Source: Lachnospiraceae bacterium (lineage in GTDB: Bacteria; Bacillota; Clostridia; Lachnospirales; Lachnospiraceae). From it: DNA of 41,517 nucleotides. The translations under genes and the position numbers were made by a program. Shown one piece after another: positions 26,001 to 27,866 of this stretch (positions are counted from its first letter, which is position 1; every line of letters begins with the position of its first letter). Below the pieces are notes generated by a model. That model was not told where the DNA came from and ran no database searches. It worked only from the letters and a program-made list of their open reading frames with translations. Location: positions 1-41,517 of the forward strand of contig JAFSXC010000028.1 in assembly GCA_017450105.1 (NCBI GenBank). The letters run 5' to 3'.

Positions 26001-26258
26001 ATGCATCATACCTATAAAACCAAAGGAACCTGCTCCTCCAAAATCGATTTCGATCTGGAGGACGGAATTGTTCAAAATGTCCGTTTTACCGGCGGCTGCA
26101 ACGGAAACCTGAAGGGAATTTCCGCTTTAGTGGAAGGGAAAAGAGCAGAAGAGATCGCCTCTCTTCTGCAGGGTGTTCAATGCGGCATGAAGGGTACCTC
26201 CTGCCCGGACCAGCTTTCCCGCGCCCTGACCGAGGCGATGGCTGCCCAGGCCGGATAA
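26001..26258 (+). CDS. TSCPD-domain protein (TIGR03905-like)
   Basis: An 85-residue protein made only of the TSCPD domain, named for its TSCPD motif (residues 67-71). It has four cysteines, C11, C33, C61 and C68, probably a metal or redox site: GTCSSKIDF, FTGGCNGNLKGI, and CGMKGTSCPDQLSRAL. The same domain forms the C-terminus of some B12-dependent ribonucleotide reductases. The function of free-standing copies is unsettled. It lies 33 nt after rfbA with a GAAAGGAAA ribosome-binding site, so it is probably the last gene of the rhamnose transcript, though the functional link is unclear. Confidence 0.88.
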   Translation: MHHTYKTKGTCSSKIDFDLEDGIVQNVRFTGGCNGNLKGISALVEGKRAEEIASLLQGVQCGMKGTSCPDQLSRALTEAMAAQAG

Positions 26259-26366
26259 ACCGAAGCATTCGTTTGAATTGTTTAAATAATATAGACAATT
26301 AAGAGAAATGCAACATTTTTATCCGATTTTTTGTAATAAAAATTCTAAATTTTTTCATTTTTCCTA

Positions 26367-26395
26367 TTGACAAACTCAAATATTATGGATATAAT
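26367..26395 (+). promoter_or_regulatory. Perfect consensus sigma-A promoter with AT-rich upstream element
   Basis: A perfect TTGACA (26367-26372), an exact 17-bp spacer and a perfect TATAAT (26390-26395). The 60 bp before it are very AT-rich with A and T tracts, like an UP element. Nothing else in the window matches consensus so well, which predicts very strong transcription. No protein gene follows it on this strand. Confidence 0.92.
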
Positions 26396-26401
26396 GAGCT
26401 T

Positions 26402-26745
26402 ACAATCAACGAGGGAGAAAAAAAGGGGTTCCAAAGACACGGGCCCAGTCCAAAAATCCAAGTAAAGGAGGTACGGACCACCGAAAACGTAACGAGTTCT
26501 AAAGGGTACTCCCGAAGGGGTTCTTCCGACGAACAGAGACCATGAACGTATAAAAAAAACGAAAACAGAACAGAGGATCAGAGAGAATATTCAGATATGG
26601 TCCCGGTTCCAGAGAGTTCATGGAGAACGGAAAGAGAGTGGAGGATTTCGGAGGGAAACAACAGAAAGAGAGGTATGGTCCAATGGACACAGAATTCTGA
26701 GAGGGCGCCATCAGGAAAGATCGTGATGACGCCCTCAAACTTTGT
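26402..26745 (+). ncRNA. Probable strongly expressed structured non-coding RNA (unknown family)
   Basis: About 340 nt from the predicted start near 26402 to a hairpin terminator. The sequence is purine-rich, with A-rich linkers and little C, quite unlike neighbouring genes. Helices visible by eye: CCATGAAC (26540-26547) with GTTCATGG (26616-26623), 8 bp perfect; GGACCA (26475-26480) with TGGTCC at 26598-26603 or, alternatively, at 26676-26681; GTCC-AAT-GGAC (26678-26688); and possibly GGGAG (26413-26417) with CTCCC (26509-26513). A perfect anti-ribosome site AAAGGAGGT (26464-26472) has no start codon after it. A 26-codon frame (26620-26700) ends exactly at the terminator but lacks a good ribosome site. 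I saw no tmRNA, RNase P, SRP, 6S, T-box or riboswitch signatures. Confidence 0.72.
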
Positions 26746-26751
26746 CCTTTT
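26701..26751 (+). terminator. Intrinsic terminator of the orphan RNA
   Basis: GAGGGCGCCATCA (26701-26713) pairs with TGATGACGCCCTC (26724-26736), 12 of 13 positions, with a 10-nt loop. A moderately T-rich stretch (26741-26751) follows. It lies directly against the 3' end of the convergent L,D-transpeptidase gene. Confidence 0.8.
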
Positions 26752-27853
26752 ATTCTTCCTCATCTACCGGGTATTCCGGGTCTGTGGGATCCCAGCCCGG
26801 ATGCTCTGCCCCTTCCTCGATCCTAAGCGGCTCCGGCTTTCCGAGCGGCCCCGGGTCGTCCGCATCATCATAAACCTCCACCAGAGTGCCTTCTTTGCAA
26901 TGATCATAAACCCACTTGGCATCCCGCACATTCATGCGGATGCAGCCGGCCGAGGCCTGCTCTCCGAGGCGGTTGTATTGATAAACCTCAAGATTTCCCG
27001 GATTTTTCGTATAATAGGGAACCGAATGGATCATCACGCCCCGGTAGACGCGTGTGGCATACTGCGACCAGACGCCGCCCAGCATACATCTCCAGCGATA
27101 CCGTTCCTTCAGCGGGAAGGTGCCAAGAGGAGTCCGGTTGTTTCTCCCCGTGGAACAAAGAAGCACCTTGTAGGGAATCGTGTACTCCCCCGCTTCATCC
27201 CGTACATAGACCGTAGCACAGTTTTGCGCCCGGTTGATCCTGATAAAATAATCCGGAAGTCCGTCCTCCGGAGGCAGCGGCATCAGAGGGTAGATCACCT
27301 CATGCTCCTCGGCGTAGATCAGCTCCGCCAGCCCTTCCCCTACCGGATCACCGGATTCCGTACGCATATTCCATGCAAGTCCCGCAGGCTTCAGGATCTG
27401 CTCCTCCGAAATCGCGAAGGTTTCCGGCGTGTTCCCGGCTTCAACCAGTCCCTCCGGCTCTTCTTCCACGGTCTTCTTCGGTTCTTCTCCCTCGGTCAAC
27501 TTCTCCTGCTCCGACGCCGGTACCTCTTCGACAAGTCCCGTTTCCGCCTTCTCTGAATCTTCTACCGCGGCCGCCTCAAGCTGTTCCGCCGCCGCTGCGA
27601 GATCGGCACTCCCCTCTTCACTGACCGTCCGGGACTTATGCGCGTTGTCCTGCGCTGTCGGCTCCTGTGCCACCGCAAGCAGAAGCTCCTCTTCCCCCTC
27701 TTCCTCTGTCGTTTCATTCTCCTCTTCAAATAAGAACAGACGCTCTCCGCCCGTCAGGAAGTAAAAAACGACATCTCCGGCCACAACGATCGCCAGAACG
27801 ACCCCGAGAATTCCGATGATCAGTTTCACATAAAAGCTGCGGAATGGATTCAT
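26750..27853 (-). CDS. Membrane-anchored L,D-transpeptidase (YkuD domain)
   Basis: A 367-residue enzyme forming 3-3 cross-links in peptidoglycan, or attaching proteins to it, outside the membrane. It has one N-terminal membrane helix (about residues 8-34), then a long acidic, Glu/Ala-rich spacer (about 43-150) that probably reaches into the wall. The YkuD domain (about 200-330) ends in the catalytic pattern: histidine in VMIHSVPYY and nucleophile cysteine in QASAGCIRMNV (H276 and C304). A TTG at 27856 also fits the frame, but the ATG at 27853 is preferred. It lies 13 nt after the aspartokinase gene and is the last gene of the long operon. No strong ribosome-binding site is visible, suggesting coupled translation. 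Confidence 0.9.
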   Translation of the reverse strand: MNPFRSFYVKLIIGILGVVLAIVVAGDVVFYFLTGGERLFLFEEENETTEEEGEEELLLAVAQEPTAQDNAHKSRTVSEEGSADLAAAAEQLEAAAVEDSEKAETGLVEEVPASEQEKLTEGEEPKKTVEEEPEGLVEAGNTPETFAISEEQILKPAGLAWNMRTESGDPVGEGLAELIYAEEHEVIYPLMPLPPEDGLPDYFIRINRAQNCATVYVRDEAGEYTIPYKVLLCSTGRNNRTPLGTFPLKERYRWRCMLGGVWSQYATRVYRGVMIHSVPYYTKNPGNLEVYQYNRLGEQASAGCIRMNVRDAKWVYDHCKEGTLVEVYDDADDPGPLGKPEPLRIEEGAEHPGWDPTDPEYPVDEEE

Positions 27854-27866
27854 CAAAGCATACCAT

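Follow-up and report, generated by a model that had tools for sequence, protein, structure and literature searches.

What is made from a consensus promoter that no protein gene follows? The window, by which we mean the whole 41,517-nt stretch of Lachnospiraceae DNA analyzed here, raises this question at position 26367, where a protein gene is absent over ~300 nt 3′ of such a promoter. A preliminary description had proposed an orphan structured non-coding RNA. Judged against its relatives, the segment that starts there is one copy of an apparently undescribed RNA family of gut Clostridia, and the RNA gene is conserved and partly structured, though not strictly non-coding. Its outer parts are the following.

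26367–26395, + strand: sigma-70-type promoter TTGACA-17-TATAAT, 12/12 consensus, with an AT-rich stretch upstream.
26402–26463, + strand: 5′ segment, in which even congeners show little conservation.
26701–26736, + strand: terminator hairpin, 12/13 pairs, directly adjoining the stop codon of a micro-ORF.

The promoter, with its exact boxes and AT-rich upstream stretch, had been described correctly. At a looser 9-of-12 threshold, four promoter-like sites lie in the 2.1-kb region, against a shuffled mean of 1.3. We infer a transcription start ~7 nt past the –10 box, and the transcript probably spans ~26402 to ~26750, in agreement with the limits given in the preliminary description. Promoters of homologs are also strong: among 78 extracted transcripts, 44 score 12/12 and 20 score 11/12, in a set chosen by strict terminator rules under which 68 loci (window included) were uncalled, 9 of them lacking a promoter call. 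The hairpin pairs at 12 of 13 positions as first described, although its T-tract is poor (AAACTTTGTCCTTTT), and a mechanical terminator scan of the region did not include it among its calls. A 319-aa ORF at 26597–27556 is not conserved: in each of the three congeners it runs into a stop before 50 codons have passed.

Composition and folding set the region apart in part. The preliminary description had called it A/G-rich unlike its neighbors; 26402–26701 is indeed 67.7% purine, and when 1649 300-nt windows are ranked by skew, the RNA region supplies three of the top eight. A coding stretch is equally skewed, however, on the other strand (300-nt windows that start at 27326–27451). The segment 26400–26750 folds more stably than its shuffles (z −2.69), one of 100 equalling it.

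The absence of a recognizable family also stood up. Against 4227 Rfam families, the whole window yielded at the gathering threshold only two tRNAs, elsewhere in the window; the best match in 26250–26800 had an E value of 0.8, and nothing reached the gathering score over the RNA in 30 relative loci. Sub-threshold matches to rli22 (L072), SpF19 (L264 and L267), and mir-4477 (L267) fall on or next to terminator hairpins. RF01699 was discarded as the family of this RNA, its match in L015 being a neighboring RNA on the other strand: a Clostridiales-1 RNA (L015:1689–1855, 124.7 bits) that lies beside the RNA gene. In the literature covered, namely titles, abstract openings, and passages of PMC8040213 and PMC2864571, we did not find the RNA described.

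Between its 5′ segment and its 3′ end, the RNA has a core with predicted structure.

26540–26547, + strand: 5′ arm of a long-range helix, CCATGAAC, pairing with 26616–26623.
26568–26609, + strand: core hairpin, GAACAGAGGATCA ... TGGTCCCGGTTC, with 11 pairs kept in four of four genus members.
26616–26623, + strand: 3′ arm of the long-range helix, GTTCATGG, pairing with 26540–26547.

All long-range complements listed in the preliminary description are present: the two helix arms, GGACCA (26475–26480), and two copies of TGGTCC (26598–26603 and 26676–26681). Compensatory changes were found in the helix, in four sequences only. Across these four genus members, three of six consensus pairs are changed on both sides with pairing kept, and one consensus pair is broken in one member. 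Over the full small alignment of the window and three congeners, both-side changes occur in 6 of 53 consensus pairs, three of them in this helix. The core hairpin is nearly static, with 10 of its 11 pairs unvaried and a single U·G/U-A change. The suggested switch between GGACCA and the TGGTCC copies is not supported. The first TGGTCC pairs with GGATCA in another conserved hairpin, and at the variable base the first and last modules show no covarying complementarity (A-T 21, A-A 15, T-T 7, T-A 7, rest 10; 60 loci). By eye the core looks unalignable between genera, whereas short modules do align.

These modules carry the main result. The first is start-less, and the second ends in a micro-ORF.

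26464–26492, + strand: start-less SD module, AAAGGAGGU ACGGACC A CCG AAA ACG UAA.
26665–26700, + strand: terminal module, SD GAGAGGU, UAUGGUCCA, then the micro-ORF; E 4.1e-6 with the module model; kept in three genus relatives.
26683–26700, + strand: micro-ORF MDTEF*, ATG GAC ACA GAA TTC TGA.

The perfect AAAGGAGGT without a start codon, to which the preliminary description had drawn attention, is conserved, and it is predicted to pair with ACCUCCUUU, the 3′ end of 16S rRNA as found in relatives. It occupies 26464–26472; a start codon at usable distance is absent, and CCG stands where a minigene has its start codon. The module scores E 1.4e-6 with the module model, whose training set includes this same module. 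Within the module, AGAAAGGAGGU complements ACCUCCUUUCU at the 3′ end of 16S rRNA, a sequence found exactly in 4 of 10 genomes queried and not found in the organism's own genome, which is incomplete. Pairing of the SD part with the 16S tail is worth ~−13 kcal/mol. We considered, and set aside, that CC-type modules are translated from a start codon further upstream in the same frame: this is possible in L014, L049, and L056, but in the window an in-frame TAA directly precedes the SD.

Among homologs, the 32-nt module AGAAAGGAGGUACRGWCC-A-[CCR/AUG/AAG]-NNN-NNN-UAA occurs in 1 to 11 copies per RNA. A weight matrix with the consensus AGAAAGRRAGGU ACRGWCC A, codon position, two codons, stop recovered 255 modules in 143 loci and none in 174,649 antisense windows; about a dozen of the loci, by reading, are chance matches inside genes that were kept in the counts. 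The codon position reads CCA in 103 modules, CCG in 59, ATG in 37, TTG in 32, GTG in 7, ACA in 6, AAG in 5, and others in 6; where columns 15 and 16 are T and G, the codon is ATG 37, TTG 32, GTG 7, or CTG 1 times. Only 4 of 164 CC-type modules have ATG, GTG, or TTG near the SD, and 160 have none. All the same, 130 of the 164 keep a stop in the frame of the missing start codon, at the fourth codon, and so do 105 of 137 CC-type seed modules picked without the stop columns. At 18 other offsets (−6 to +12), stops number 0–18 each among the 164, except for 59 at +5; since this second stop is out of frame, the stops of CC modules are not wholly frame-bound.

Internal modules of the start type are minigenes, encoding MA*, MG*, MGT*, MYT*, MKT*, and similar. 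Modules are often clustered: 61 of 63 pairs within 75 nt are spaced 48–60 nt apart, which is about one 30S footprint. Anaerobutyricum hallii has 8 modules in a row, L275 has one array of 11 (by the matrix), six of these MYT*, and L254 carries two whole genes of the RNA in tandem. Sequence comparison identifies the conserved units as SD modules, often in tandem, that either are start-less or have a start codon from which one or two sense codons lead to a stop. In start-type modules, column 10 (W10) can pair with the first base of the start codon (column 14) in 56 of 69, where the null had a mean of 40 and a maximum of 50; relatedness is uncontrolled in this comparison, and a clade effect is possible.

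By the same comparison, most members have at the 3′ end a terminal ORF of 5–9 codons in which SD, start, frame, and stop are preserved; the stop abuts the terminator stem or lies within it. The position and frame of MDTEF* are kept as MDSEG*, MDSMF*, and MDSMF* within the genus and as MDSIV* and others beyond it. An SD-preceded ORF of 3–12 codons ending at the terminator stem was found in 88 of 131 loci, whereas 100 shuffles gave a mean of 5.3 and a maximum of 12. A terminator was called in 131 of the 143 loci, and for the window and some others the call was a wrong, later hairpin; such calls account for part of the misses, together with chance loci, ORFs missed by the rule (L064, L074, and L154), and true absences, L084 and L091 having no terminal ORF. 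The 88 ORFs have 5 codons (57), 6 codons (23), or 7–9 codons (8) and end in TAA (38), TAG (36), or TGA (14), and in 82 no more than 3 nt separate the end of the stop from the called start of the stem. MDSIV* (16) and MDEIV* (7) recur among them in several synonymous spellings each. The independent RNA gene of the preliminary description is supported, and it is conserved in relatives, but non-coding in the strict sense is not supported, because a conserved micro-ORF touches its terminator. Terminator stems of distant members (for example L015, L049, L061, L069, and L172) share GCGGGTATCRAT or close variants, a likeness that exceeds what a terminator needs.

How widely is this plan distributed? 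The preliminary description had proposed a search of relatives, and such a search showed the RNA to be conserved in congeners and the module in other genera. By BLAST against 61 genomes, near-full-length homology is confined to one congener (82%, E 1.2e-93), with partial homology in two more, while other genera share short conserved stretches. With ≤2 mismatches allowed, the start-less module pattern was present in 62 of 150 family genomes, part of them by chance, because a reversed control matched 30; some of the fetched loci lie inside genes (L045, L057, L067, L082, L083, and others). The exact pattern is found in at least 119 stretches of GTDB contigs. The 80 matches listed are mostly Lachnospiraceae or genera placed there by record title, among them Anaerobutyricum hallii, Eubacterium ramulus, Hungatella hathewayi, Blautia, and Roseburia; exceptions among those listed include MAGs that bear the titles Bacillus sp. 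(L111) and Krumholzibacteriia (L156), and the latter match, without a promoter, is perhaps chance. When the pattern was tightened to ≤1 mismatch and applied to 146 genomes of the order, it picked out 2 of 16 family members and none of 130 others.

The module model, a sequence-only model built from 60 modules, some of which came from genomes that it then matched, detects the module in 60 of 100 Lachnospiraceae genera at E ≤0.05 (~5 by chance), 47 of them below E 0.001. These are major gut bacteria, and no searched family covers the RNA. In 195 genomes of the class, the model matched 24, with ~10 expected by chance, and 18 of the 24 lie outside the family. Of eight out-of-family loci inspected, four (G323, G313, G456, and G426) have the full plan, and G357, G448, G424, and G478 resemble ordinary gene starts or are ambiguous. 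The same plan occurs in three other Clostridia families and its 3′ half in a fourth. Across 249 genomes of the phylum, only two reached E ≤0.002, both family members. A distinct terminal ORF was found in six of 392 class genomes, from four other Clostridia families: MLDIKSEQK* in four and MLDIKSEQE* or MLDIKSVEK* in the others. Read by eye, its stop lies within the terminator stem. A 5′ minigene accompanies it in five of these genomes (three families), and the pattern found none in G532. Outside the family, L264–L267 share the linker elements AACACGRCGGTGT and AATTCGCCTTTTG or close variants. A phage origin was set aside, the exact pattern occurring on a single viral contig.

What could such an RNA do? 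We consider the most likely mechanism, with a probability of roughly 0.4, to be that it acts as a decoy that parks or titrates 30S subunits. The gene would produce a trans-acting RNA from a near-perfect promoter, and its conserved parts would be mimics of translation initiation sites. Subunits would bind the modules through the 16S tail without useful initiation or elongation, and a ribosome on the terminal ORF would halt at the 3′ end, on the terminator. Bound ribosomes might also shield the RNA from 5′ and 3′ decay. If ribosome binding is true, the RNA would provide for RNA-based storage or limitation of translation initiation.

Several findings fit this mechanism poorly. Ribosome binding does not require the conserved spacer UACRGWCCA, and pairing with rRNA does not explain it: in an ungapped scan of one rRNA operon, ACRGWCC never exceeded the maximum of 100 column permutations (18 tests), and extended pairing with GGAUC of the 16S tail did not stand out among 400 common permutations (fraction 0.14). 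Something else may therefore read the module. In CC-type modules, a hairpin is predicted between the SD and ACCACC (GGAGGU-ACRG-ACCACC, with an A·A mismatch; the loop is ACGG in the window). It is weak (mean −3.3 kcal/mol), and through this pairing the SD is predicted to be less accessible, with a mean unpaired probability of 0.32 versus 0.47 for other G residues of the same RNAs and 0.39 for start-type SDs (69 transcripts, from the first 70 of 88). Many modules also fall below the strongest SD, with GAGAGG or GGAAGG in its place. Finally, the MIEESK- and MLDIKSEQK-type terminal ORFs lack the UCCA motif, and two members (L084 and L091) show no terminal ORF.

The module might instead bind a regulator that usually sits on the start regions of mRNAs, be it an RNA-binding protein or a C-rich sRNA resembling the anti-SD; the RNA would then be its sponge, in the way that CsrB and RsmZ serve CsrA. 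We regard this as somewhat unlikely. An invariant CC and a conserved UACRGWCCA beyond the SD, present in tandem copies, would suit a specific binder, as would the predicted hairpin and the retention of the whole motif in start-less modules. A few near-copies precede ordinary genes, at the gene starts of L257 and L258 and in the leader of L221, but outside the loci of the family the exact start-type motif is rare: of 14 matches in 40 genomes, 11 lie in loci of the RNA family (by reading), and a reversed pattern gave 10, so no broad shared set of mRNA targets is visible. Nor was a long complementary partner found in the organism's own genome, where the best other match has an E value of 0.018 over 24 bases. 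CsrA itself is disfavored as the ligand, since its GGA core is not in every site and modules such as AAAGAGAGGUACAGUCCACCAAAAAC (L058) lack it. The L221 copy (G158:C60) is a single AUG minigene, MGK*, in a protein-gene leader outside any array.

Could the peptide be the product? A dual-function mRNA would encode 5–9 amino acids (MDSIV, MDEIV, MDTEF, or MLDIKSEQK), its upstream modules tuning translation or stability. Frame, start, and stop are kept through synonymous changes (AGT/AGC, GAT/GAC, TAA/TAG/TGA), and MLDIKSEQK is nearly invariant across its six genomes and four families. The peptides are, however, very short and widely different between genera, the two or three codons of other modules are hardly a peptide signal, the best-conserved sequence lies in modules that are mostly start-less, and the ORF is absent from L084 and L091. 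This explanation is unlikely.

More improbable still is that the modules are only a scaffold for stability or processing, with start-less SDs guarding against 5′ exonucleases in the manner of STAB-SD elements and the real function residing in the variable structured core. The covarying core helix within the genus speaks for such a function, as does a hairpin with the invariant 11-nt loop UGACGAGAAAG in 20 other loci (L012, L017, L038, L043, L058, L060, L061, L073, L074, L076, L078, L105, L123, L124, L132, L133, L169, L231, L255, and L256). These are 20 of 23 pattern matches, and their stems are unrelated and, counting G-U, from 3 to at least 9 pairs long; the other three matches have 0–1 stem pair. 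In L058 the loop is that of the terminator, and by reading no such hairpin was seen in the window RNA. Against a scaffold, it is the modules and not the core that can be aligned between genera, and protection should not call for arrays as long as 8 to 11 modules.

A leader in which micro-ORF translation blocks the terminator, letting RNA polymerase reach a downstream gene, is highly improbable: the stop does touch or sit inside the stem, and one same-strand downstream cluster, which we take to be NagZ-like, occurs in 39 of 143 loci, 31 times as the immediate neighbor, but elsewhere downstream genes vary and some are convergent, including the window's own at 26750–27856 on the other strand, presumably an L,D-transpeptidase. 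With that cluster as the largest, no conserved same-direction downstream gene, as an attenuator would have, was found; clustering of neighbors by BLASTP, read by eye, likewise gave no constant neighbor gene across loci. Upstream on the same strand, 26001–26258 encodes what we assume to be a TSCPD-domain protein. A TSCPD-like gene also adjoins the RNA in L010, and an L,D-transpeptidase-like gene in L128.

How does a 30S decoy compare with known systems? The type III toxin–antitoxin RNA ToxI, which has an endoribonuclease toxin gene directly downstream, shares tandem repeats, a strong promoter, and a terminator, but BLASTP clustering of neighbors shows no constant gene downstream of the module RNA, whose repeats hold SDs and micro-ORFs. 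Lambda bar minigenes consist of an SD, a start, one or two codons, and a stop. Part of the internal modules of other members (MA*, MG*, MGT*) have this arrangement, and the window's first module, with CCG for the start codon, does not; the module RNA is also a chromosomal gene of its own, in which minigenes form arrays interspersed with start-less copies. In Bacillus mRNAs, STAB-SD elements are SD-like sequences without a start codon that can bind 30S and thereby stabilize the mRNA downstream. The window has a comparable sequence at 26464–26472, an SD complementary to the 16S tail (taken from relatives) and without a start codon; the module RNA differs in repeating its modules, in keeping spacer and stop, and in having no protein gene in the unit. 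CsrB and RsmZ are sponge RNAs for CsrA and resemble the module RNA in their repeated SD-like sites within a strongly promoted, terminated RNA, whereas its conserved site is an initiation mimic of 20-plus nt with a stop codon.

A further parallel is 6S RNA, a small RNA that mimics the nucleic-acid substrate of RNA polymerase and can sequester the enzyme. The Rfam covariance model of 6S has no match in the window or the 30 relative loci, and the target of the module RNA would be the ribosome instead of RNA polymerase. The likeness lies in the principle, a small RNA mimicking the substrate of a central machine that it could thereby sequester, so that a ribosome-parking RNA would be the translational counterpart of 6S action on RNA polymerase. 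With slightly less confidence than in the decoy itself, we tentatively suggest that a chromosomal array of start-less ribosome-binding sites and two- or three-codon minigenes at about 30S-footprint spacing, closed by a micro-ORF on which a ribosome would be parked at the terminator, may define a new class of bacterial RNA, a 6S-like RNA that would set the free 30S or initiation capacity of Clostridia.
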